Of a DNA stretch of 64,000 nucleotides, positions 1-32,886 are shown one piece after another. Position numbers and translations under genes: made by a program. Origin of the DNA: Aureimonas sp. AU20 (lineage in GTDB: Bacteria; Pseudomonadota; Alphaproteobacteria; Rhizobiales; Rhizobiaceae). Under the pieces are notes generated by a model. It made no database searches. It was not told the origin of the DNA and saw only the letters and a program-made list of their open reading frames with translations. How positions within the stretch are numbered: position 1 is the first letter of the stretch; each line of letters opens with the position of its first letter. The stretch lies in the NCBI RefSeq assembly GCF_001442755.1, contig NZ_CP006367.1:2232001-2296000 (forward strand), read 5' to 3'.

Positions 1-2
1 AT

Positions 3-140
3 CACGCATCGGAGCATCCGGACGTCTTCCTGTCCCGCGTCGGGCCCGCCATCGCCTCGACGCCGGCGGACCACGCGGCCTGGCTGCGCGAAGCCGCCGA
101 GGTCCACGACGAAGACGAACCGAAGGGGCCGTCGGTCTGA
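3..140 (+). CDS. C-terminal end of an unrecognised protein (5' partial)
   Basis: This is an open frame entering from the left window edge and ending in TGA at 138-140. That stop overlaps the ATG of the next gene (TGATG), which is typical of translational coupling. The visible 45 residues are polar, start near HASEHPDVFL and end in EPKGPSV; no family is recognisable. Its tight junction with the metallophosphoesterase suggests both belong to one transcription unit. The start and total length lie outside the window. Confidence 0.5.
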   Translation, partial: HASEHPDVFLSRVGPAIASTPADHAAWLREAAEVHDEDEPKGPSV

Positions 141-955
141 TGCGCGTCCACGTCCTCTCCGACCTGCACCTGGAACACCGTGCCGGCGCCGGTTGGGAAC
201 CGCTCGTCGTCGACTGCGACGTCGTCGTGGTCGCGGGCGACGTCGCGTCCCCGCCGGCGGCGTCCCTGCGCTGGCTTTCGGAGCGCTTTCAGGCGCCCGT
301 GATCTTCGTCGCCGGCAACCACGAGTACTACGGCTGCGTGAAGGCCAGAGTGGAAACGCCGGACCCCGTGCCCGGCGTCCATCACCTCGAGGATCGCGCC
401 GTCGTCCTCGGCGGAACCCGCTTCCTCGGCTGCACGCTCTGGACCGACTACGAGCTCTACGGCCCGGCGACGACGAGCTTCGCGATGGAGATCGCGGAGC
501 GCGGGATCAACGACCACCGCATGATCGCGGCGTCGGATCCGGACGAGCACCGCCGCATCCTCCGCTTCATGCCCTAGCATGCGCGCACGCTGTACCTGGC
601 GTCGCGGATCTGGCTGGAGGAGGAGCTGACGAAGCCGTTCGACGGCCCGACGGTGGTGGTGACGCACCATGCGCCGACGCCGCGGTCGATCCATCCGCGC
701 TACGAAGGCGACGTGGCGAACCCCGCGTTCGCGTCCGATCTTACCGACCTTGTAGCCCGCGTCGGCCCGGACCTGTGGATCCACGGGCACGTGCACGACA
801 GCTTCGACTACCGGATCGGGCGGACCCGCGTCCTCGCCAATCCGAAGGGCTACGGCGACGAGAACAAAGCGTTCGATCAGAGCCTGGTGGTGGACGTCCG
901 GTACCATCCGAACTGGCGTGCGCGGATCCAGGACGCGCAGGAGCCGAAGCCGTGA
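140..955 (+). pseudogene. Metallophosphoesterase interrupted by one in-frame amber codon
   Basis: A calcineurin-like phosphoesterase of about 271 codons. The first part (140-577) carries the metal-binding blocks SDLHLEH (near residue 8), VVAGDV and AGNHEYY. The second part (from 578, same frame) carries THHAPTP and the C-terminal GHVHD block. The two parts are separated only by TAG at 575-577, in the context RFMP-stop-HARTLY. A related protein at 28904-29721 has TPQH around this spot, so a GAG-to-TAG change is the simplest explanation. Unless the stop is read through, two truncated products result, each lacking half of the dinuclear metal site. The gene overlaps the upstream frame (TGATG) and the downstream small ORF (GTGA). 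Substrate unknown; a role in nucleotide or phosphodiester turnover is only family inference. Confidence 0.8.
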
Positions 956-12804: not shown

Positions 12805-15048
12805 ATGCGTACCATGGCAACTGGCGCATTGTGGCTGTTCACCGCCGTCTTGAGCCTTTTTCTGATCGCCCAACCCGTGGGCGTGGATACGCAGCTCGCC
12901 TTGGCGGCCTGCGCGATTTCCGTCTCGCTGGCGATCTACCTCCTGCGCCTGCAAGGCGTCTGGCGCACGGTGTTCCTCGCCATCGCGACGGTGGTCGTCC
13001 TGCGCTACGCCTACTGGCGCACCACGACGACGCTTCCCTCGCCCGACGACCTCCTCAACTTCATCCCCGCCATCATCCTCTACCTCGCCGAGATGTATTA
13101 TATCGTGCTGCTCGGCACGAACCTCTTCGTCGTGGCCGATCCGATGAAGCGTCCGCCGGCGCCCCAAGTTCCCGACGACGCCCTGCCGCGCGTCGATATT
13201 TTCGTGCCGTCCTACAACGAGAGCGCTGAAATCCTGGCGCTCACCCTGTCCAGCGCCAAGGCGTTGGACTATCCCGCACACAAGCTGCAGGTCTATCTCC
13301 TCGACGACGGTGGCACGCAGGAAAAGCGCACGGCGCGCGATCCCGCAAAGGCGGCCGAGGCGCAGGCCCGGCATGTCGAGCTTCAGGCCCTCTGCGCCGG
13401 GCTCGGCGTCACCTACGTCACCCGCTCGCGCAACGTCCATGCCAAGGCGGGCAATCTGAACGCGGGCCTCGCCGCCTCGGACGGCGATCTCATCGTGGTC
13501 TTCGACGCCGACCACGCCCCGGCGCGCGAGTTTCTGCGGCAGACCGTCGGCTACATGGTGGCCGATCCCAAGGTCTTCCTGGTCCAGACGCCGCATTTCT
13601 TCTCCAATCCCGACCCGATCGAGAAGAACCTCAAGACCTTCGATCGCATGCCCTCGGAGAACGAGATGTTCTACGGCACGATCCAGAAGGGCCTCGACAA
13701 GTGGAACGCGGCTTTCTTCTGCGGCTCGGCGGCGGTGCTGCGCCGCGCGGCACTGGTGGAGGTCGGTGGCTTCTCCGGTATCACCATCACCGAGGATTGC
13801 GAAACCGCGCTCGACCTGCACTCGCGCGGCTGGAAGAGCATCTATGTCGACCGGTCCATGGTAACGGGCCTGCAGCCGGAAACCCTGTCCAGCTTCATCG
13901 GTCAGCGCTCGCGCTGGTGCCGGGGCATGCTGCAGATCCTGTTCCTGAAGAACGCCGCGCTCATTCCCGGCCTCTCGCTCGCCCAGCGCATCTGCTACCT
14001 CTCGTCGGCCCTGGTCTGGTTCTTCCCGATCATGCGCGTCGTCTTCATGGTCGCACCGCTGCTCTTCATCTTCTTCGACCTGAAGATCTACGACGTGTCG
14101 ACGCAGGAATTCGTCGCCTATGCGCTGACCTATCTCGCGGTCTCCTCCCTGATCCGCAACTATCTCTACGGTCAGGTGCGCTGGCCCTGGATGTCGGAAC
14201 TCTACGAATACGTCCAGTCGGTCTATCTCTTCCGCGCCGTCCTCAGCGTCATCGTCAATCCGCGCCGCCCGACCTTCAACGTCACCTCAAAGGGCGACAC
14301 TCTGGCCGAGGATCGCCTGTCCGAGATCGCCTGGCCCTATTTCGCCATCTTCGCCGTGCTGCTCGGCGCCACCGGTTACAGCCTCTATCGCTACCAGACC
14401 GAGCCGGAGATCGGCGGCATCCTCTTCGTCGTCACGATTTGGAACGTCATCAACCTCCTGCTTGCCGCCGCCGCGCTCGGCGTGGTGACGGAGCGGCGCG
14501 AACGGCGCGGCGCCCCGCGCATCCTGACCAACCGCGTGGCCGAACTGCAGGTCGAGGGACGCTCCCTTCCGGTACGCGTCACCGACATCTCGACCGGCGG
14601 CGTGCGCGTCGAGATCGAAGGCTCGCTCGACACGCTCGCCCCCGGCAGCAAGGCCTCGCTCCGGGTCACGCGCCTCGACGGAACGCTGGCCGGGCTGCTG
14701 CCGGTCGCGATCCGCGCGGTGGAAGGCCAGGGCCATGCCTCGACCGTGGTCGGTCTCGGCTATCGCGCGGCCTATAGCGACTATCCGCTGATCGCCGAGT
14801 TGATGCTCGCCGACATGAGCCCGGTGCGCGACCAGCGCTCGGCCCGCCAGCGCCGCCGCGCCCTGGTCCTCGCCAATGCCAATCTTCTGGTCTGGGCGCT
14901 CGCCTACCCCCTGCGGGCGTTCCGCCACCTCCTGTTCGACAAGCCCTCGGCCGCGCCGGTGGCGGTGGCCGCTCAGGATGTGCTGGCCGTCCCGCCGGTG
15001 CCCGCCCTTTCGTCCGTGTCCGTCGACGCGCAGCCCGCGCAGTCCTGA
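12805..15048 (+). CDS. bcsA: Cellulose synthase catalytic subunit (UDP-forming), BcsA
   Basis: A 747-residue inner-membrane GT2 enzyme that polymerises UDP-glucose into beta-1,4-glucan and passes it through its own channel. Two groups of membrane helices lie at the N terminus; the catalytic domain has DDGG (about residue 166), DAD (234), TED (328) and QRSRW (367-371); more helices follow. A PilZ domain starts near 562 with RRERR and DISTGGVRVEI, the c-di-GMP-binding signature. All key residues are present. The ATG at 12805 fits the usual start. It is first in an operon with bcsB (18 bp downstream), bcsZ and a TPR gene; activity is expected to depend on c-di-GMP. Confidence 0.97.
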   Translation: MRTMATGALWLFTAVLSLFLIAQPVGVDTQLALAACAISVSLAIYLLRLQGVWRTVFLAIATVVVLRYAYWRTTTTLPSPDDLLNFIPAIILYLAEMYYIVLLGTNLFVVADPMKRPPAPQVPDDALPRVDIFVPSYNESAEILALTLSSAKALDYPAHKLQVYLLDDGGTQEKRTARDPAKAAEAQARHVELQALCAGLGVTYVTRSRNVHAKAGNLNAGLAASDGDLIVVFDADHAPAREFLRQTVGYMVADPKVFLVQTPHFFSNPDPIEKNLKTFDRMPSENEMFYGTIQKGLDKWNAAFFCGSAAVLRRAALVEVGGFSGITITEDCETALDLHSRGWKSIYVDRSMVTGLQPETLSSFIGQRSRWCRGMLQILFLKNAALIPGLSLAQRICYLSSALVWFFPIMRVVFMVAPLLFIFFDLKIYDVSTQEFVAYALTYLAVSSLIRNYLYGQVRWPWMSELYEYVQSVYLFRAVLSVIVNPRRPTFNVTSKGDTLAEDRLSEIAWPYFAIFAVLLGATGYSLYRYQTEPEIGGILFVVTIWNVINLLLAAAALGVVTERRERRGAPRILTNRVAELQVEGRSLPVRVTDISTGGVRVEIEGSLDTLAPGSKASLRVTRLDGTLAGLLPVAIRAVEGQGHASTVVGLGYRAAYSDYPLIAELMLADMSPVRDQRSARQRRRALVLANANLLVWALAYPLRAFRHLLFDKPSAAPVAVAAQDVLAVPPVPALSSVSVDAQPAQS

Positions 15049-15066
15049 TCCTAGGGAACCCTGCTC

Positions 15067-17421
15067 ATGACGCATCGCCCGACACCCCGCTGGAAAGCCC
15101 TTCTCGGCGCCTCCGCCCTCGCTCTTCTCGCCCCCACCGCAGCCCCGGCGCTGGCCGGGGCCGCCCAACCCTTCGACCTATCAGTGGCCCCATCGGGCGC
15201 CGACACCGCGCGGCCGGAGGGTGCGCCGGGTCTGGTGCGCCTGCCGGCCGGCGCCTCGGAACTCGCCTTCAACCAGGAGAATCCGCACCGGACCTATCCC
15301 GTCTTCGTCACCGGCGAGGAAAGCACCAAGCCGGCGGAGCTGACGGTGGGCTATTCCAGCACCGTCACCATCGCGCCGGAAAGCTCCTCAATCACCGTTC
15401 TGGTGAACGACGAGGTCGTGGCCGAGCGTCCGCTGACGGTGGGCAGCGACCAGCGCTTCAGCGTGGCGGTTCCCGCCGGCCTGCTTCAGGCCGGGTTCAA
15501 CGCCGTCCAGATCATGGTGCGCCAGTTCCACCGCGTCGATTGCAGCGCGGCGGGCACCTACGAACTCTGGACACGGCTCGACCCGGCGACCACGGGCCTG
15601 CGCTTCGCCCAGACCGCCTCGCGACCGTCCGATCTCGGCGAGTTGCCGGCGCTCGCCCGCAGTCTCGACGGCGAGGTCGCGCTCAACGTCCTCTCGCAGC
15701 CCGGCGCGACCACCGAGGCGACGGGGCGCGCCCTTTCGGCGGTCCAGTCCCTGGCGCTACTCGGCCGCTTCGCCAATCCGCGCGTGCATCTCGGGGGCAC
15801 CCCTGCGGGCGGGATCGACGTCATGGTCGGCACGTTCGAGGAACTGGCCTTCCTGTCGCCGACCAAGCTTGCGCCCAACACGCCCTGGTCCGGCGTTTTC
15901 TTTCTTCCCACCGCCCCCTCCACCGGCCGTCCGGCCCTGGTGGTGACGGGCGCGGGGCAGGGCGATGTCGACTCGGCGCTCGCGGCGCTCGCCAAGGGCG
16001 CACGGGAGGCTCGACCCAACGGGTCGGTGCCCGGTCTCACGGCCCTCGCCAACAGCCGAGGCAGGCCGATCGACGCCGGCCAGTCGGCGAGCTTCGCAGA
16101 GTTCGGCGGCGACACGCGGCCCTTTCCGGGGCATGTCTACCGCGACGAGGTGGCGCTGACGCTGCCGGCCGATTTCTACCCCGCCAATTACGACACGGCG
16201 ACGGTGGTGCTGAACGCTGTCTATGCGGCGGGTCTCTCCTCCGAGGCCATGCTCTTCGTGCGGGCCAACGATCAGATCGTCGCGACGCTCCATCTTTCCT
16301 CGCCGCGCGCCGGCCAGATCAAGGACCAGCGTCTGCGCCTGCCGCTGGAGGTGCTGAAACCCGGCGCCAACCGAATCTCTTTCGAGGCTCTGGTTCCCCG
16401 CGCCGGCGACGCGACCTGCGAGGGCACGGCCAGCAACGAGGCGCCGCGCTTCGCGCTTCTGGGCACGACGCGGATCGACATTCCCTCGCTCGCGCGCATC
16501 GGCCATTATCCCAACCTGTCCGCCACGCTGGCCGGCCTGTCCGATAAAGGCGAGGCGCAGCAGCCCTTGTCGGTCTACGCGCCGGGCGGCGACGCCGTGG
16601 CGCTGGAGGCGGCGGCGACCATGCTCGCCCGCATGGCCGGCGCCTCCGGCACGGTGCGCAAGGTGCAGGTCGTGCGCGCCATGCCGCATGAGGAAAGCGG
16701 CGATCTCCTGGCCGTCGGCACCTATTCCGCGCTGCCGCCTGAACTGATCTCGGCGGTGGAGCGGCGCGGCGCGAGCGCGGACGCAGGCTCGGCCGGGCTC
16801 TTCGCCAGCCTCGCCTCGATCCTGCCGGCGGAGGCCGCCGGCGGCGGATCCGAGCCCTCGCCAATGGACATCCTGAAGAGCATGGACAAGGCCCCGCCCG
16901 GAGCGGACGGGTTCCTGTCCGCCTTCTCGCAACCGGGCGACCTGCTCGGGCGCGCGGGCGAGATCGTGCAGCCCTTGGTCGCGCCGATCGCCAGCGCGGC
17001 GCAGAAATGGTCGGCGGCGGCCTCGCCGCAGGCCCTGCCGCTGCCGGGCGACGCGTTCGTGCTGGCCCAGGTCGCGGCGCCCATCGCCCCCGGCGCTGCC
17101 TGGACGGTGCTCGCCGCGCCGACGCGCGAGGCGCTGGCGGAGGGCTCGCGCCGGCTCGGCGAGCCCGGCGTCTGGCGCATGGTCGCGGGCGCGCGCACGG
17201 AAATTCCGAGCGCGGCGGACGGCGCGCTGCGCATCGCGCAGGGGCCGGACGAGCGCCTGTTCGAGACGCAGGGCTGGACGGTCGGCAACGCCCGTCTGGT
17301 GCTGGCCGGCTGGTTCTCGCGCCACAGCGAGCGTTATGCGGGCTCGGTCATGGGGGCCTCGCTCCTACTGGCGCTTTCGACCTTTCTCCTGCTGCGCCGC
17401 GTCGGGGAGAAGAGCAAGTGA
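15067..17421 (+). CDS. bcsB: Cellulose synthase regulatory/periplasmic subunit BcsB
   Basis: A 784-residue periplasmic partner of BcsA. It begins with a signal peptide (KALLGASALALLAPTAAPAL), has two carbohydrate-binding plus flavodoxin-like modules (for example VDCSAAGTYELWTRLDP and the later ATCEG-containing copy), and ends in a single membrane helix (VMGASLLLALSTFLLL) followed by RRVGEKSK, the tail anchor that docks to BcsA. It guides the glucan across the periplasm. The stop overlaps the GTG of bcsZ by GTGA, so the two are translationally coupled. Length is normal for rhizobial BcsB. Confidence 0.95.
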   Translation: MTHRPTPRWKALLGASALALLAPTAAPALAGAAQPFDLSVAPSGADTARPEGAPGLVRLPAGASELAFNQENPHRTYPVFVTGEESTKPAELTVGYSSTVTIAPESSSITVLVNDEVVAERPLTVGSDQRFSVAVPAGLLQAGFNAVQIMVRQFHRVDCSAAGTYELWTRLDPATTGLRFAQTASRPSDLGELPALARSLDGEVALNVLSQPGATTEATGRALSAVQSLALLGRFANPRVHLGGTPAGGIDVMVGTFEELAFLSPTKLAPNTPWSGVFFLPTAPSTGRPALVVTGAGQGDVDSALAALAKGAREARPNGSVPGLTALANSRGRPIDAGQSASFAEFGGDTRPFPGHVYRDEVALTLPADFYPANYDTATVVLNAVYAAGLSSEAMLFVRANDQIVATLHLSSPRAGQIKDQRLRLPLEVLKPGANRISFEALVPRAGDATCEGTASNEAPRFALLGTTRIDIPSLARIGHYPNLSATLAGLSDKGEAQQPLSVYAPGGDAVALEAAATMLARMAGASGTVRKVQVVRAMPHEESGDLLAVGTYSALPPELISAVERRGASADAGSAGLFASLASILPAEAAGGGSEPSPMDILKSMDKAPPGADGFLSAFSQPGDLLGRAGEIVQPLVAPIASAAQKWSAAASPQALPLPGDAFVLAQVAAPIAPGAAWTVLAAPTREALAEGSRRLGEPGVWRMVAGARTEIPSAADGALRIAQGPDERLFETQGWTVGNARLVLAGWFSRHSERYAGSVMGASLLLALSTFLLLRRVGEKSK

Positions 17422-18512
17422 GACGCCGGATGAGCGCACTCCTGCTCGCCGCCATGGCGGGCATGGCCACCTTGACCGGCGCGGCCTCGCCCGCTCTCGC
17501 CGCCGCGCCGCAAGCGGCGCTGACGGTCGAGCCGCAGGACTATCTGATCGGCGCCTGGGAGTTGTATCGCAGCCGCTTCGTCTCGCCCGAAGGGCGGGTG
17601 GTGGACGATGACAACGGCTCGATCAGCCACAGCGAAGGCCAGGGCTACGGCATGCTGCTGGCGGTCGCGGCCGGCGACCGGGCGAATTTCGACAAGCTCT
17701 GGTCCTGGACCCAGCAGGAATTGTTCATCCGCGAGGACGGGCTCGCCGCCTGGCGGTGGGACCCCGCCGCCTCGCCCCACATCACCGACCGGAACAATGC
17801 CAGCGACGGCGACATGCTGGTCGCCTGGGCCTTGCTGCGGGCGGCCGAGCGCTGGAACGTGCCGGAGTTCCGCAAGCGGGCCCGCACGATCAGCGATGCG
17901 CTGGCGGCCCATTCGGTCTCCGACGTGCGCGGGCGCAAGATGCTCATGCCGGCGGCGGAGGGTTTCGCCAAGGGTGAGCAGCCGGACGGGCCGGTGGTCA
18001 ACGCCTCCTACTGGATATTTCCCGCGATCGCGGAGCTCGCCACGATCTCGCCGGCGCTGGCCAAGGCCAAGCTAGGCGAAAGCGGAACCTGGCTCCTGCG
18101 CAAGGCCCGCTTCGGCCCGGCAAAGCTCCCCAGCGACTGGGTCTCGCTCGGGGCCTCCGACCCCGCGCCCGCCCGGTCCTTCCCCGCGAGCTTCGGCTAC
18201 AACGCGGTGCGCGTGCCTCTCTATCTTGCCTGGAGCCAGGACGCCGATCCCGCGCTTCTCAAGTCCTATGCCGACAGCTGGTCCGCCCAAGCGCCGGGCG
18301 CGCTCGGCACGGTGGACCTCCCGACGGGCGCGACGCTCGAACCGATGACGGCGCCGGGCTACGGCGCCATCGCCGATCTCGTGGCCTGCGCCAGCGGCGA
18401 GAGGCCGGCGCGCGCCGAGACCCGCAACTTCGTGCCGACCACCTACTATCCCAGCACGCTTCACCTCCTGAGCCTCTTGGCCTTTGCAGAAAGGTATCCC
18501 CGATGCCTGTGA
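17418..18512 (+). CDS. bcsZ: Cellulose-operon endoglucanase (glycoside hydrolase family 8), BcsZ
   Basis: A 364-residue secreted endo-beta-1,4-glucanase. The start is GTG 17418 overlapping the bcsB stop; this includes VRRRM as the positive n-region of the signal peptide, cut after ALA near residue 30. An ATG at 17430 would also give a signal peptide. GH8 signatures are visible: SEGQGYGMLLAV with the acid-catalyst Glu, NNASDGDMLVAWAL with the base-side Asp, and NASYWIFPAI. It trims or edits nascent cellulose in the periplasm. The final bases overlap the start of the next gene by 10 bp. Confidence 0.95.
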   Translation: MRRRMSALLLAAMAGMATLTGAASPALAAAPQAALTVEPQDYLIGAWELYRSRFVSPEGRVVDDDNGSISHSEGQGYGMLLAVAAGDRANFDKLWSWTQQELFIREDGLAAWRWDPAASPHITDRNNASDGDMLVAWALLRAAERWNVPEFRKRARTISDALAAHSVSDVRGRKMLMPAAEGFAKGEQPDGPVVNASYWIFPAIAELATISPALAKAKLGESGTWLLRKARFGPAKLPSDWVSLGASDPAPARSFPASFGYNAVRVPLYLAWSQDADPALLKSYADSWSAQAPGALGTVDLPTGATLEPMTAPGYGAIADLVACASGERPARAETRNFVPTTYYPSTLHLLSLLAFAERYPRCL

Positions 18513-25736: not shown

Positions 25737-25979
25737 GCCACCCGTCAGCCGCCACAGCAGGAAAGTGTCGACCGTTCCGAATGCGAGCCTTCCTCCCTCG
25801 GCGCTGGCTCGCGCACCTTCAACGTTGTCCAGGATCCAAGCGATCTTCGTCGCCGAGAAATAGGGGTCGAGCAGCAGGCCGGTCTTCTCCGAGACCATCG
25901 GCTCCAGCCTGTCGTCCTTCAGCGCCCGCCACCGTTCGGCGGTCCGGCGGTCCTGCCAGACGATCGCGGCATGGATCGG
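25737..25979 (-). pseudogene. glpK: Glycerol kinase, internal fragment
   Basis: About 81 residues in one minus frame: [40 protein letters not shown] and [17 protein letters not shown]. This is the unmistakable central part of GlpK, which includes the glycerol-contacting region around FSATK. Both the N-terminal ATP-binding part and the rest of the protein are absent; the reading changes to unrelated sequence at both ends. It marks a site where a core metabolic gene was destroyed by recombination, and its right end abuts the helicase remnant directly. Confidence 0.85.
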
Positions 25980-27067
25980 GACCACATGTAGCCGGTTGTG
26001 TCGATCGCCCTTGCGACCTCGAGTTCGTTGTCCTGCAGGTCGGAGTAGCCGTCGTGCAGGGCGTTCTCGAACCGCTCCACCTCGTCTGGCTTTACGAGGA
26101 CAGAGGGCACGACGTAGAGGTTGGCGTCCTCGAACGATAGTTCCGAGTGATCGAGGTAGGTGTCGACCAAGCGCTCGGCTGCCTCCCGAAGGGCCGTTGC
26201 CGCGACACTGGTGATCTCGATCCGAACCTCGAACTTGGGATCGGCCCAGTCGATCGTCTTGGTGGCCTCTGGATAGATGGACTGCATGTGCCGGCGAACC
26301 AGCCAGCGTGCCACGATGCGGTTCGAATGGTCCTTGCGGATGGTCTCGATCTGGGTCGGGGTACGCTCACCCACGATCTGGACCGCCCGGCTGAGTTCGC
26401 CAGGACCCGTCGTGTTGACGTCGTCGGATGCGTAGTCGTGAATGCCCGCCACGGCGTCGGCGAGCTGGTCCACGGCGGCGTCCGCATCGATATGGATTTC
26501 CGGGACGGTTCGGCGTTCCTTCGGCTCCAGACGCGACCGGGTCCTGTCCCGCTGGTCCGAGTACCCGTCGATCCGGACATCCGGCGTTTCACCGGATATG
26601 CGCCGTCTGACTGTATCCAGGATCGTCTGGAACTCCTGCCGGCTACCCGTCCGGATGTAGAAGTGCGCGGTGTTCAGGATCGGGTTGGCATAGTGCTGTA
26701 CGCCTGGCTGACGCAGTGCACGACCAATGACCTGCTCGACCTGCGTCGCCGATGCCATCGACTTGTCGATGTACGCGAACCCGCAGGTCGGGTCGTCCCA
26801 ACCTTCCTGGAGCGCTTGGTTGAAGATGATGTGCCGGAAGTTGCCGGCCGTGAACGCAGCGAAGTCGTCGTCGCCACCGGAGAACAGCCGAAAGTCCGCG
26901 GGGAGAGGGAAGTCCCGCTGGTCGACCTTGAGGTCGCCATAGACCGCGATCTCGGCAGCGGGAATGCCCTTCTGTTCCGTCAGATATCGCCAGATCAGGA
27001 TCGGTGGCGCCTTCCGTTTTACGAAGGGGGCATGCGGGCTGTCCATGACACCGTCCTCCTGGGCCAT
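25980..27067 (-). pseudogene. Helicase of the type III restriction (Res) superfamily, C-terminal part only
   Basis: The frame shows the RecA-like domain 2 of a Res/DEAD superfamily-2 helicase: IAVYGDLKVDQRDF, NFRHIIFNQALQEGWDDPTC, FAYIDKSMASATQVEQVIGR followed by ALRQPG (motif VI), then a long C-terminal region. The domain with Walker A and DExH boxes is missing, and the 3' end fuses into the glpK fragment after DTTGYMWSR. The ATG at 27067 overlaps head to head with the start of the plus-strand gene at 27066, so at least one of those starts is not real. Probably a non-functional remnant of a restriction or defence helicase. Confidence 0.6.
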
Positions 27068-27734
27068 GCATAGGGTCCGGCAGCGCACCGTAGAGTCCGC
27101 CGCCGGATCGACGCTCAAGAACCGCGCACGTCGCGACCAGATCCGCTCCGCCGTTCTCGAAAGCTTGTCGTCCGGTGGATCGATCGCGGGCGTGGTCAGA
27201 AGCCTAAACTGCTCGCAGAAGGTGGCGGCGGTGATACGGGACGACCTCGTGGCCGAGGGGCTTCTACCGGTCGTTCAGGAAAGGCCACGATCCGCACCGG
27301 TCGAACCGAAGCCCGTCGCCACCGCGCCCGTCGCTTCAACCCCCGTCGTCCCATTCCCGTCGGCCTTCTTCTTCCGCACCGTCCCGACCGTCTCGACGCG
27401 CCGACCCAGACCCGTTCAGCGGAACTTCTGGACCGATGGCGAGGTCAGGCGTCTGCGGGAACTGGCCCTGACGGAGCCGTCCCTCAGGAAGATAGCCGTG
27501 GCCCTCGATCGGCGGGAGAGCACCGTCGCTCACAAACTCGCCGAACTGCGGATCACGCCCGTCTACCGGCTCTCGTTCCTGACACGCGGTGCGATCGACC
27601 GCCTGCATAGGGAAGGCCAGCCTGCTAGACGCATCGCCATCCGGACGGGCATCCCGATCCCGCTGGTCGAGCGTCACCTCGATCGAATGGGCCATCACCT
27701 GCGTTCTACGGAAGTTCCGACGGGACGGTCGTAG
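27066..27734 (+). CDS. Putative DNA-binding protein with repeated helix-turn-helix regions
   Basis: A 222-residue frame from ATG 27066 (MHRVRQRTVESAAGSTLKN). The N-terminal part resembles a winged or simple HTH (RRDQIRSAVLESLSSGGS, IAGVVRSLNCSQKVAAVIRD). A Pro/Val-rich linker follows, then a Myb/GcrA-like block (NFWTDGEVRRLRELALTEPS, LRKIAVALDRRESTVAHKL) and a third HTH-like end (GQPARRIAIRTGIPIPLVER). It overlaps the RDD gene convergently by 40 bp. Function unknown; regulator of the surrounding island is a guess. Confidence 0.55.
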   Translation: MHRVRQRTVESAAGSTLKNRARRDQIRSAVLESLSSGGSIAGVVRSLNCSQKVAAVIRDDLVAEGLLPVVQERPRSAPVEPKPVATAPVASTPVVPFPSAFFFRTVPTVSTRRPRPVQRNFWTDGEVRRLRELALTEPSLRKIAVALDRRESTVAHKLAELRITPVYRLSFLTRGAIDRLHREGQPARRIAIRTGIPIPLVERHLDRMGHHLRSTEVPTGRS

Positions 27735-28903: not shown

Positions 28904-29721
28904 TCAGACCTCGACGACGAGCCGCGGATCGAAGGCCGCGTTCTCGTGCTCCTCGACGCCCTGACCGAAAACCATCTTCGTGCGCACGTACCCCCGAGGA
29001 TTGCAGATCACCTGTGTGTCGCCGACGAGGTAGTCGCGCTGGCAGTGGACATGGCCATGGATCCAGAGCGCCGGCCGCCCGTCGTGCATGACGTCTTCGA
29101 GGTGGCTGGCGTACGCGGCGTCCAGCCGCTCCCTGACCTCGCCGTGCCTCAGCGACCGGGCTGACGGCGCGTGATGAGTCACGACGACGGTCGGCCCGTC
29201 GAACGGCGTCGCCAGCGTATCGACGATCGCCTTCCGGTGCCTCGCGTGGATGCCGACGAGGTGCTGAGGCGTGAGCCGGGGCCGCTCCGAGCCGGTGTCC
29301 GACCGGGTGTACCGAAAGTCGTTCATGGCCGCCAAGGCCTCGAGCTGGCCCTTATGCGTGCCGTCACGGCAGATCCCGTAGTCTGTCCAAAGCGTCCCGC
29401 CGACGAAGCGGACGCCACCGATCTCGACCGTGTCGCCGTCGAGGACGTGGATGCCGCCGACCTGCACGCGTTCACGGAACCGGGGGATCTCGCGATCGAC
29501 GCTGCCGCTCAAAAATCGTGGTTGCCGGCCACGACGACGATGGGGATGCCGAGGCGGCGGACCTGGTTCTCGAGCCAGTCCCGCCCCATCGTGCTCAGGC
29601 GACCCGCGATGTCCCCGGCGACGACCAGGACGTCCGCCTGGACGTCGGTCGGGGGCTGCCAGACGCCGATCGCCGAGCGGCTGAAGTCATCGTGCAGGTC
29701 GGACATGATCCAGATCCTCAC
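28904..29721 (-). pseudogene. Second metallophosphoesterase, broken by a frameshift in a T5 run
   Basis: The first 70 codons (GTG 29721 to 29509) read MRIWIMSDLHDD, VLVVAGDIAG and IVVVAGNHDF-stop. The rest is in the -1 frame from TTG 29512: LSGSVDREIPRF, GGTLWTDYG, VVTHHAPSARS and WIHGHVHCQRD. One extra T in the run at 29511-29515 would join them as NHDF-LSGS. It is a homologue of the gene at 140-955 (shared GGT-LWTDY, FDGPTVVVTHHAP and WIHGHVH). Its start overlaps the stop of the preceding 66-aa gene. A real mutation, a sequencing slip or -1 shifting at TTT-TGA are all possible; the first two are likelier. Confidence 0.75.
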
Positions 29722-29918
29722 CTGCGGTCTCCCTGCAAACGCCGGTGGCGATCAACGACGATACCCATAGCGAACATGCCCATCCGGTGCCGCTCGTCGG
29801 CATCGAGGTGCGAGTAGATGTCGACAGCCTGAATGACGACCTCGGACGGCGGAATGCCTTCCGACCGCTCCAGATGCTCCAGGCGGGCGAGGACGGGAGT
29901 GGGGAACACGACGATCAC
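29718..29918 (-). CDS. Small protein coupled between AAA+ ATPase and metallophosphoesterase (66 aa)
   Basis: GTG 29918 overlaps the TGA of the ATPase gene (GTGA), and its own TGA overlaps the GTG of the phosphoesterase in the same way, so three genes are chained. The protein starts VIVVFPTPVLARLEHLERSE and contains IPPSEVVIQAVDIYSHLD, which could be a ribbon-helix-helix-like or short helical adaptor, then RMGMFAMGIVVD. No family is recognised. Double translational coupling strongly suggests a real partner of the other two. Confidence 0.65.
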   Translation of the reverse strand: MIVVFPTPVLARLEHLERSEGIPPSEVVIQAVDIYSHLDADERHRMGMFAMGIVVDRHRRLQGDRR

Positions 29919-31690
29919 AGCGGCCTCCCACGCAGCACCGTTTCGCGAGCGTCCAGCGTGGCCTGAACCGCCGTCTTGAGCCGCCTGAGGGAGCCGCCCT
30001 TCCACATCTTCCGGATCACGCCGAGTTCGTCGTGAGCCAGCGGCGGGGTCCAGGCGAGGTCCATACCGCCGTCGATCGCGATGTCGGCGACGATCCGGCG
30101 AGCCAGATCGCCGAGGTGTTCGGGTCCGGCGTCCGGCATCTCGACGACTCTGAACCGATCCCGCAGGGGCGCGGGCACGCCGTCAAGGCTGTTCGCGGTC
30201 GCCAGGAAGCTGACGTAGGACAAGTCCGCGTTCCTCTCGATGCCGACCTCGAAGTACTGGCTCGCTGTGTGCCGTTCGAGCATCGGCAGAAGCGACGTCA
30301 GCAGCGAACCGTGTCGATCTCCCGTGCCCGTCTTCTCGATCTCGTCGAGCACAAGGATCGGGTTGGCAAGGTTCGCCACCCGGATCGCCTCAAGGGGCGT
30401 GCTGGCTCGTCGAGTGCCCCACTGTGACGGCGTTCCCCCGAAGCTGTTGTCCGACACCGCGGCGCACGGGTACACCGTCGTGTGCAGACCAAGGGCCGTC
30501 CCGATCTCACGAGCTAAACTCGTCTTGCCGGACCCGGGCTTGCCAACGAGCAGCGTCGGACGGAACCGGACAGGCTCGCCCGGACGGACGTCCTGAAGGA
30601 TGCGGTCGACGACGGTCCGGGCGTGGGGCCAGGCGTCGCCGAGCGAATGGGCGATCCCGGCCACGTCCTTAGGCGCACAGGTGAGGTCGAGGTGTCGACC
30701 CGATATCGGCGCGAGGTGCCGGATCAGATCGTTGTCGTCACCACGAGCCTTCTTGTCGCCGTCCGAGGGCTGCAGGTCGGCGAGGACGACAAGGTGCGGA
30801 TACGCAGCCGTCGGGCGGTCAGGCAGCGACGCGATTCGTTCCGCCGTCACGTTCGCGACGTGTGCGCGGATCCTAGCAGTCCGTTCGTCCGGCGGCTCGT
30901 CCGAGGTCTCGTCGACGATCACGTTGAGATGGTTATCCCACAGCAGGCCGGAGCCCGACCTGAAGAATCGGTTCGGGTCTTCCGGTACGACGAACTCCTC
31001 GACGACAGCCTTCGTCTTTTCGAGTTCGCGCTCATGGGCTCGCGTCCTCGCGATCGTCACGAGATCGCGCAGCCATGATTTCTCCGACGACGCATACGAC
31101 TCCTGCATGCTCGGACGCTTGATCGCATCCCGCCAGCCACAGACCGCGTTGACGGCGCTCGACTGCAGATCGATGCGCCTGGCGAGTTCCTGCGCACCAC
31201 GGATCAGGATCCGGATCTCGACACCGGGATACCACGTCCAAACGTGGCTCTTAGCGGTGGCGGTCGCGTGGTACATCAGTCCGATCACGAACGCGGCCCG
31301 CAGATCCGCCGACTTATGGTACCGGCGGTAGAGTTCATTGGCTGCATCGACGTCGCCGTGGATCGCGAGCCAGTACTGTACCCGCTGCAGTTCGTGGCCG
31401 GCCGGCATGTGATCCCGCAGATCGGTCAGGATCGCACGCGTCGGCAGGTCGGTGCACGCGACCAGGAGCCGGAGTTCGCCGTCGTCGGACAGCAGCCGGC
31501 GGCGACGGATGGACTCGGCCCACAGGTTGAAATCCGTGAGGATCGAGCCGTCGGCAGGCGGGCCACCGCGGAGTAGGAAATCAAGGGAAGCATGCTCTTT
31601 GCCCGCCAGGACGGGCTGAAGGCTATCTTCATGGATCTGCTTTTCGGAAATCAGGACGTCGTAAAGCGACGTGTCGGCATGCGAGGGCAC
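29915..31690 (-). CDS. AAA+ ATPase (Lon-like ATPase module without protease domain)
   Basis: A 591-residue protein from GTG 31690 with an AAGGTGG ribosome site. The N-terminal about 330 residues are helical and unrecognised. The AAA+ core follows: Walker A LLVGKPGSGKTSLAREIG (near 382-390), Walker B PILVLDEIEKTGTG (near 443), sensor 1 FLATANSLDGVP, arginine finger region LRDRFRVVEMP and a small lid with IRKMWKGGSLRRLK. This order matches Lon-type ATPase domains, but the Ser-Lys protease domain is missing. It heads a chained unit with the 66-aa gene and a metallophosphoesterase, within an accessory segment beside tRNA-Val. Confidence 0.75.
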   Translation of the reverse strand: MPSHADTSLYDVLISEKQIHEDSLQPVLAGKEHASLDFLLRGGPPADGSILTDFNLWAESIRRRRLLSDDGELRLLVACTDLPTRAILTDLRDHMPAGHELQRVQYWLAIHGDVDAANELYRRYHKSADLRAAFVIGLMYHATATAKSHVWTWYPGVEIRILIRGAQELARRIDLQSSAVNAVCGWRDAIKRPSMQESYASSEKSWLRDLVTIARTRAHERELEKTKAVVEEFVVPEDPNRFFRSGSGLLWDNHLNVIVDETSDEPPDERTARIRAHVANVTAERIASLPDRPTAAYPHLVVLADLQPSDGDKKARGDDNDLIRHLAPISGRHLDLTCAPKDVAGIAHSLGDAWPHARTVVDRILQDVRPGEPVRFRPTLLVGKPGSGKTSLAREIGTALGLHTTVYPCAAVSDNSFGGTPSQWGTRRASTPLEAIRVANLANPILVLDEIEKTGTGDRHGSLLTSLLPMLERHTASQYFEVGIERNADLSYVSFLATANSLDGVPAPLRDRFRVVEMPDAGPEHLGDLARRIVADIAIDGGMDLAWTPPLAHDELGVIRKMWKGGSLRRLKTAVQATLDARETVLRGRPL

Positions 31691-31929
31691 GGGGCCACCT
31701 TGCGGATCAGGACTCGGGGGATCGGCGGGTGGGTGCTGCGACGCTACCCGCGGTCACCAGGATTTCAGACCTGGGTTATTCGGCGGACGTTGCACCCTGC
31801 TTTGGGGTCGAGGAGAAGACTAGCGCGTCTCGATCCCGTCCAGCAGTCCCGATCGGGACCGATCCGCGATCGCGGTTAGCGAGAAGTTTTCCTAAACACA
31901 GCAGACTGCGGGTCGGGTGAAAAAACCGG

Positions 31930-32741
31930 TCATCCGGCGGAACGAGGGCGGTTCGCGGCGCTCTCGACGACGTAGTCGCATAAGGCCAGGGCCGAGTTGA
32001 CGGCTAGCTTGGCGTGCCGACGGGCGGGGGCGTAGGTCTTCGCGTGACGGTTGGAGGCCTTGTTGGAGACCTCGAAGATGCCCGCGACAAGCTTCTGCAG
32101 GCCGTCCAGAATCGGCTTCAAGGGTTGGTCGATCGTCTTGTCGGACGGTGCCAGACCGAGTTCGTTCGATACCAGGGTGTAGAGAGCGCGGATGTCGCCC
32201 TGGTTCTGGTTGAATTCTACGCCGCGGTCCCGCAGGACGATCTTGAGAAGCTGCTCGACCAGCGTGTAGCAGTGGGTGATGGCATCGGCGTACTCACCGG
32301 CCGCAAGATGCTCGTTCGCCTTGGCGATGTGCTCGTGGACGGCTTCTTCGGTGGCGGAGGTCAGGTCCCGAACGTCGATCGTCCGAACGTCCATCTTAGG
32401 CGACGTAAGGCGACCCTTCTCCCGTGCGAAGCCGTCGCGTTCCAACCGTGACATCAGGTCGTCGTAGGCCGTGGCGACCTCGGGGGACGACGGACGTTCC
32501 AGATGGAACAGCACCTCCTCGAAGACGAGCAGGAGGGGTTCGACAGACTTTGCGGACGTGAAGTCGATGGTCGCATAGTAGCCCTCGACCCGTGATCGCC
32601 GCTCCCCGACGAAACCGCCGACGTCTCGGTACGCGATGCCCCCGATCGAGAAGGCGTCGTCGATCGTCCGAAGGTTGAAGAGCCCGACGAAGACCTCGCG
32701 GAACGTGTCGCGGTTCCTTTTCCGATCAGGTCGCGGGGCAT
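31930..32741 (-). CDS. Abi_C-like abortive-infection family protein
   Basis: The C-terminal half matches the Abi_C pattern: GEYADAITHCYTLVEQLLK, a central VEFNQNQGDIRALYTLV, and the signature ASNRHAKTYAPARRHAKLAV with SALALCDYVVES. Proteins of this kind are linked to phage exclusion. The start is uncertain. ATG 32741 (MPRDLIGKG) is in another frame and would need one more A in the A4 run at 32718-32721 to join NRDTFREVFVGLF. A TTG at 32781 is in frame without any shift. The open frame also runs back through the tRNA-Val gene, which is meaningless. Confidence 0.6.
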
Positions 32742-32811
32742 TAGAGTGAGGTTTCCTCCGCGGTTTTCTCCGCGGGTCCAACGGGGTGTGGTCTGGAAGG
32801 CCTGTAAAACA

Positions 32812-32886
32812 TGGTGGGCGCGACAGGGATCGAACCTGTGACCCCCTCGGTGTGAACGAGGTGCTCTCCCGCTGAGCTACGCGCCC
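32812..32886 (-). tRNA. tRNA-Val (anticodon CAC)
   Basis: Read on the minus strand: acceptor GGGCGCG / CGCGCCC, D-arm TAGCTCAGCGGGAGAGC, anticodon stem CCTCG/CGAGG with loop TTCACAC (anticodon CAC, decoding GUG), T-arm with GGTTCGATCC, discriminator A and encoded CCA at 32812-32814. The accessory segment lies on its 3' side, the usual side for tRNA-directed integration; no second copy of the tRNA 3' end was noticed in this window. Confidence 0.97.

Follow-up and report, generated by a model that had tools for sequence, protein, structure and literature searches.

The window analysed here is a stretch of 64,000 nt from the genome of Aureimonas sp. AU20 (contig NZ_CP006367.1, positions 2,232,001 to 2,296,000), and it carries a cassette of three genes that encode, in this order, a Lon-like AAA+ ATPase (hereafter also the motor), a 66-amino-acid (aa) protein of probable ribbon-helix-helix (RHH) type, and a metallophosphoesterase (MPE; Table 1). 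The ATPase stop codon and the GTG start of the 66-aa gene share GTGA at 29918-29915, as do the stop of the 66-aa gene and the GTG start of the MPE N-terminal piece at 29721-29718. A unit of three genes linked by two GTGA overlaps had been described in the original prediction, and we confirmed its open reading frame (ORF) coordinates and both junctions. Other genomes show the same gene order, again with overlapping stops and starts, and the ratio of nonsynonymous to synonymous substitution rates (dN/dS) between the window and Leaf324 is 0.15-0.26 for parts of the ATPase and for the C-terminal piece of the MPE, so that the cassette is more than a chance arrangement. Judged from its sequence, the ATPase, the 66-aa protein and the MPE are a real, coupled and conserved three-gene unit in accessory DNA.

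Table 1 Features of the cassette and its surroundings (window coordinates, except for entries beginning with L002)
Feature	Coordinates	Strand	Remarks
Lon-like AAA+ ATPase, 591 aa	29915..31690	-	GTG start
Probable RHH (CopG-like) protein, 66 aa	29718..29918	-	GTG start
MPE N-terminal piece, 70 aa	29509..29721	-	D-x-H, GD and GNHD motifs; GTG start; frame breaks at end
MPE C-terminal piece, 202 aa	28904..29512	-	Different frame; THH and GHVH motifs
Conserved leader	31688..31817	-	Five predicted helices; touches the ATPase start from upstream
Conserved promoter-like stretch (TTTAGGAAAACTT ... CTGGAC ... GCTAGTCTT)	31816..31896	-	Putative promoter
Second cassette of the same genome: ATPase, 529 aa	L002:622-2211		
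Second cassette: RHH protein, 70 aa	L002:2208-2420		
Second cassette: MPE, 325 aa	L002:2470-3447		One frame
3' end of the second cassette's intact MPE	1..140	+	
Second MPE of the second cassette	140..955	+	In-frame stop; ORFs 140-577 and 653-955, same frame
Abi_C/HEPN (AbiJ-like) gene	31930..32742	-	Abi_C E 3.7e-14, AbiJ-like E 1.7e-20; between cassette and tRNA-Val
tRNA-Val (CAC)	32812..32886	-	
51-nt 3' part of tRNA-Val	32811..32861	.	Attachment-site-like repeat

Residues 380-515 of the ATPase matched Pfam AAA (E 1.8e-12), and the best curated relative was Lon, over the AAA part only (NCBIfam E 2.1e-17, far under the cut-off of that model). Residues 292-591 correspond to the three-helix bundle and AAA+ module of Lon, the C-terminus falls at the point where the Lon protease domain would start, and the N-terminal part is helical and variable. 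Our alignment showed that the Walker, sensor and pore motifs are preserved, with a conserved Trp in the position of the pore-loop tyrosine of Lon. The motor resembles LonA protease (TIGR00763, endopeptidase La) in the bundle and module and in what we take to be Walker A/B, sensor 1, the arginine-finger region and an aromatic residue at pore-loop 1, but it has a helical N-terminal region of its own and no match to the Ser-Lys protease domain. Neither Lon protease models (Pfam and NCBIfam) nor Lon N-terminal models were matched at E 0.1, the N-terminal fold not having been searched separately. The earlier description of a Lon-like ATPase without a protease domain therefore stands and can be narrowed to a Lon-type AAA+ module, which is present, while the protease half of LonA is not found. 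Those high-identity ATPase homologues that carry names came from Aureimonas.

With regard to the MPE, the calcineurin-like metal motifs D-x-H, GD, GNH[DE], H and GHxH are all present, but the window copy splits them over two frames, in agreement with the frameshifted phosphoesterase that had been proposed as the last gene. The frame is open in the relatives L046, L048 and L055, and also in the second cassette that this genome carries. The broken MPE frame probably leaves the window copy of the cassette inactive or reduced. Programmed frameshifting was considered for the break, but since relatives read through in a single frame, an ordinary indel, from mutation or from an error of assembly, would be the simpler account. 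The N- and C-terminal pieces matched Metallophos of Pfam (E 2.7e-9 and 0.021) and PHROG 1649 (E 5.6e-9 and 1.4e-33); no solved structure was matched by sequence with the MPE of the second cassette. The cassette MPE shares metal-site motif blocks and subfamily score with phage metallophosphoesterases of PHROG 1649 and Metallophos, but differs from them in being coupled to an AAA+ motor and, in the window, frame-broken. The N-terminal piece also matched the PADLOC phage-defence-candidate model PDC-S10 (E 3.7e-7), which we take to be a single-gene candidate, whereas the motor and the RHH protein lie outside it.

An order-wide search found MPE matches at E 1e-20 in 38/397 genomes (63 places). We fetched 40 MPE regions, 36 from these places and four genus loci (three weaker genus MPE places were left out); in 11 of them the MPE is preceded on its own strand, at no more than 3.5 kb, by a Lon-like motor and in 4 by an FtsH-like AAA protein, counts that have no matched control, and in three of these fifteen AAA-linked regions the AAA protein stands beside a second, weaker MPE. 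Of the four genus MPE loci that are not linked to the Lon-like motor, one (L174) adjoins an FtsH-like AAA protein. On Rhizobium plasmids, the same MPE subfamily overlaps by 4 nt with an AAA-M41 protein; these pairs resemble the cassette in coupling this subfamily to an AAA+ protein, but their motor is from another AAA+ clade and retains its M41 peptidase. FtsH-like AAA genes beside the same MPE subfamily were seen at L103:4028-6840 and L104:3085-5768 (both on Rhizobium plasmids), L154, L155, L173 and L174. The M41 peptidase was confirmed in the proteins of L103 and L104, and a CBASS cyclase gene lies near L104.

The conservation of the unit was evaluated in a close set of 13 loci from the ATPase searches with a family-profile score >425 bits, from which L047 was left out since a contig end cuts the locus. 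In the remaining twelve (window, L002, L033, L034, L035, L046, L048, L049, L051, L055, L088 and L089), the RHH gene follows the motor in 10 (exceptions: L033, with a different 77-aa gene, and L089), an MPE is linked in 10 (exceptions: L049 and L089; the MPE of L035 is from another subfamily), and both are present in 9. Across the genus, 13 motor places were found at E 1e-18 in 9/21 genomes; eight have a linked MPE (among them a broken locus, G135:C75), one has the RHH gene only (G139), two have a zinc-finger-type partner without MPE (G124 and G138), and the last two run into a contig end (G127:C11 and G131, the latter with a zinc-finger-type partner). The full set was seen only in Aureimonas, Antarcticirhabdus and one related phage record. 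Scanning genome contigs with a single ATPase sequence found no relative; a profile scan gave at least 33 loci, of which the best nine (L055-L063) were used and the other 24 (E 5e-19 or weaker over the AAA part) left out, and the search of viral contigs for the motor gave at least 10 loci. ATPase homologues mostly lacking the other two genes, or placed in housekeeping operons, had been named in advance as evidence against the original prediction. The first was seen in part, with a same-strand MPE within 2 kb in 15/40 motor loci (ATPase searches; at least 1.5 kb of sequence downstream) and RHH as first partner in 8/42, and no housekeeping operon was seen.

Identity between the window and Leaf324 was 78% for the ATPase, 42% for the RHH protein and 85-86% for the MPE; the corresponding values were 51%, 47% and 86-93% between the window and AU4, and 50%, 86% and 85% between Leaf324 and AU4. 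On these three loci only, the three cassette genes have discordant histories, as expected from part exchange. The dN/dS values of 0.15-0.26 cover the ATPase parts and MPE of window-Leaf324, the MPE of window-AU4, and the RHH protein and MPE of Leaf324-AU4; between the second cassette and its phage relative, the MPE fell within this range and the ATPase reached 0.47. By this measure, the cassette genes are under purifying selection. The preserved Walker, sensor and pore motifs of the Lon-type motor would also suit a chromosomal housekeeping operon, for instance protein quality control with a phosphatase. We consider this highly improbable, given that the cassette is patchy in the genus, mosaic, located at tRNA sites and present in a phage record, and that a separate Lon-sized match (open frame ~800 aa) occurs in its own genome and in most of 121 family genomes.

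The location of the cassette links it to mobile elements. Phage record IMG/VR 2671180612_000005 (70,887 bases) has an integrase at one end and the series helix-turn-helix (HTH) gene-ATPase-RHH-MPE-MPE at the opposite end, with terminase, portal and virion family matches among the 39 genes scanned. In a second virus record, Vsr, a cytosine methyltransferase, a NotI-like enzyme and an endolysin are all encoded no more than 6 kb from the motor, with the MPE distant, near the other end, and a third has an integrase 2.5 kb from the motor. Among the eight top-scoring of 42 motor loci, seven are preceded by a tRNA on the same strand, 219-1058 nt before the motor frame (Thr five, Pro one, Val one), and four of the tRNA-Thr cases have one chromosomal flank in common. 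When all 42 were counted, a tRNA lay within 2.5 kb on either side in 11, compared with any tRNA in 3/11 random 14-kb stretches. No repeat of the tRNA-Thr 3' end was found beyond the cassette within the 2-8 kb examined.

At the window, conserved synteny with gph-rpiA-gor ends at the tRNA-Val 3' end in 9/9 relatives (stretches examined), and a 96% copy of the 51-nt tRNA-Val 3' part lies 36.95 kb to the left (G000:C1:2227860-2227910), outside the window and before the second cassette. The 37-kb segment is defined by this repeat alone and may be composite, because its left flank (pntAB) is not beside tRNA-Val in the stretches examined, where no empty site of the segment was found, and because the left neighbours of tRNA-Val vary by clade. 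Both the Abi_C-like gene and the tRNA-Val that had been placed beside the cassette were recovered by family and tRNA scans; the Abi_C/AbiJ-like gene was matched in 3/21 genus genomes, its own included. A position outside the core blocks of the element, as for prophage or island cargo (morons), is seen in one phage record and at the tRNA and attachment-like sites of chromosomal copies. The evidence, read from sequence and gene order, favours mobile-element cargo under selection with part exchange. A conflict role fits the mobile location and the swapped parts, and our preferred reading, to which we give a probability of roughly 50%, is that temperate phages and tRNA-integrated islands carry it as a mobile, modular cassette for conflict.

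Carrier phages may alternatively use the cassette for host takeover or counter-defence, the MPE breaking host DNA or destroying defence signal nucleotides and the motor disassembling host complexes. This would be consistent with the presence of the MPE subfamily in 152/50,697 phage records and with two published accounts: for a mycobacteriophage MPE, damage to host DNA and silencing of host defence genes are reported (PMC12287305), and calcineurin-like phosphodiesterases of jumbo phages are predicted counter-signalling enzymes (PMC7824862). The motor, however, was not found in the same phage collection beyond short Lon-like matches in 8/50,697 records (23-27% of the query, 29-38% identity; two annotated lon). 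Moreover, in the one phage record read through, the cassette forms the terminal block, opposite the integrase end, and five chromosomal loci have a promoter-like leader of their own, as lysogeny-expressed cargo would have. We regard host takeover as unlikely on balance.

The 66-aa protein matched no family at E 0.1 in four libraries; one of nine homologues gave a sub-threshold match to RHH_1 of Pfam (E 0.0038), and one homologue carries the source name ribbon-helix-helix copG. Its short N-terminal stretch and two helices may correspond to the fold of CopG/Arc-type RHH regulators and antitoxins, and by structure it weakly matched Reg576, a plasmid regulator, and RelB, an antitoxin; it has an additional C-terminal helix (residues 40-61). 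The small adaptor of the first description is thus better termed a probable ribbon-helix-helix, CopG-like protein. Named sources of its 31 relatives were only Aureimonas and Antarcticirhabdus. No palindrome was common to the upstream regions of six loci, and DNA binding by the RHH protein is putative. More generally, 27/42 motors have next to them, downstream at -20 to +35 nt, a coding-like gene for 55-215 aa, compared with 14/109 controls (Fisher p 1e-9), where 11 of the 42 loci were found via their MPE and the loci are not independent. First and second partners fell by sequence into recurring groups, namely RHH (8), zinc-finger type (8), helical (7) and DUF6634-like (5); the names other than DUF6634 are our own, and DUF6634 was confirmed for L162.

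Type II toxin-antitoxin pairs typically have this order, an RHH gene whose stop overlaps the start of an enzyme gene, and the classical protease of antitoxins is Lon. The cassette could in this way serve as a maintenance or lysogeny switch, with the RHH protein as antitoxin-like repressor, the MPE as toxin or regulator, and the Lon-like motor as a trigger that strips or exposes the RHH protein, which would suit the Reg576 and RelB matches and the position at the end of an element. Yet the motor precedes the pair and has no protease, and most of its deeper relatives occur without RHH or MPE; the window MPE is also frame-broken while the other two genes are open, although such a pair would allow that too. 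Such a switch therefore seems to us a minor possibility.

Upstream of the motor of the proposed conflict cassette, a ~130-nt leader is common to five loci (window, L046, L047, L048 and L049). Its consensus has 26 pairs, with standard pairs in 96.9% of cells. The covariation score was 0.285 compared with 0.176 (standard deviation 0.033) in shuffles and was reached by 0/500 of them, and 11 cells were changed on both sides compared with 5.1 in shuffles (1/500 reach). Other measures were less favourable for the structure: the 6 both-side-changed pairs were reached by 32/500 shuffles, and the 10 further pair types by 466/500. Slid alignments scored 0.02-0.10, a biased comparison considering that the structure was derived from the same alignment, and the folding energy was ordinary (z 0.19). 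The last helix pairs CCACC with a Shine-Dalgarno-like GGTGG before the start codon. As four of these five pairs never vary, we can only infer that the leader may gate translation of the motor. In 21 genus genomes, the five-sequence leader model found no place other than these, all of them ahead of a cassette motor, and 43 sources gave no additional match better than E 0.1, with none on plasmids. In Rfam, only tRNA reached the gathering score; two sub-threshold matches, at E 4 or more, look like chance. A leader pattern match in a viral contig (L213) was rejected, with neither a leader-model match nor a motor there. It is tempting, if somewhat doubtful, to see here prophage-borne immunity of a new, polymorphic class: a Lon motor without protease would work with exchangeable partners (RHH, zinc-finger type, DUF6634-like, helical) and a phosphoesterase effector, all under a new cis-acting leader RNA that would gate motor translation.

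Prophage hotspots rich in anti-phage systems are documented (PMC9122126), and for this reason defence is, by analogy, the most likely role of the cassette. Our data on its neighbourhood do not support the defence-island argument of the original prediction, since 116 cassette neighbours carried no more PADLOC matches at E 1e-8 than 116 controls. The neighbours matched IetS, MkoB, PDC-S11, PDC-S14, TnsB and subtilase models with one member each, and the controls matched mad3 (four), mad8 (two), and mad2, two Csa3 models, TniQ, DruG, TnsB and AriA (one each). Neighbours were distance ranks 1-118 of 358 genes round 39 loci, with two long genes omitted and none from L101, whose motor was uncalled; small partner genes and the L035 MPE, which is of another subfamily, are counted among them. 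Controls came from 11 chromosomal stretches of Aureimonas genomes, so that plasmid and other-genus loci have no matched control.

No named PADLOC system fits the set, in line with the earlier statement that none is known to combine these three parts; matches were partial, the best for the set being PDC-S10. A layout of two to three genes with an AAA ATPase plus effector enzyme is found in defence pairs of the IetAS type and others, and the cassette shares it, but cross-matches to IetA and TRIP13 are weak (E 2.5e-4 at best) and confined to the generic AAA part, and the cassette has no subtilase. No paper describing such a cassette was found by title or abstract opening, in a search that left most subscription journals outside.

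As a mechanism for the conflict cassette, we propose that the leader and the RHH protein would keep it quiet, and that the variable N-terminal domain of the motor might bind a trigger or target. The motor pore, with its conserved Trp, could then take a protein complex apart by pulling, and what it strips is perhaps the RHH protein or a complex of the invader. The MPE would next act as effector, with DNA, RNA or a nucleotide as its substrate, and most likely competing phages or plasmids would be excluded as a result. If this is true, phage-versus-phage cassettes have taken up Lon-type threading motors, minus the protease, as interchangeable cores. Such cassettes could be searched for by a Lon-AAA ending at the lid, a tightly coupled small gene, a PHROG 1649-type MPE and a tRNA-proximal site, and the leader could help to find the trigger.

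Several side observations concern the elements around the cassettes. The tRNA-Thr(CGT) site bears the cassette in four Aureimonas genomes (L033, L046, L048 and L049) and is an integration hotspot. The phage record that carries the cassette (G529) also encodes, at L204:2504-5695, a protein of 1063 aa whose architecture, a metallophosphoesterase at the N-terminus together with a match to nSTAND NTPases, is defence-like, and L089:2905-7829 is a virus-record stretch in which the Lon-like motor occurs with genes for Vsr, cytosine methyltransferase and a NotI-like restriction enzyme. In the second cassette, transposase-like ORFs (IS5-type by eye) at L043:16491-17245 separate the HTH-like gene from the ATPase. 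The 37-kb repeat-bounded segment contains cellulose-synthase-like genes (by eye; window 12805-18512), another reason why it may be composite. Near the window cassette, positions 25919-27118 hold a fragment resembling a type III restriction enzyme (PADLOC E 1.9e-7). Finally, comparison of L178 with L179 revealed ~10 kb left of the same tRNA-Val in one close relative that is missing from the other, a further sign of an integration site.

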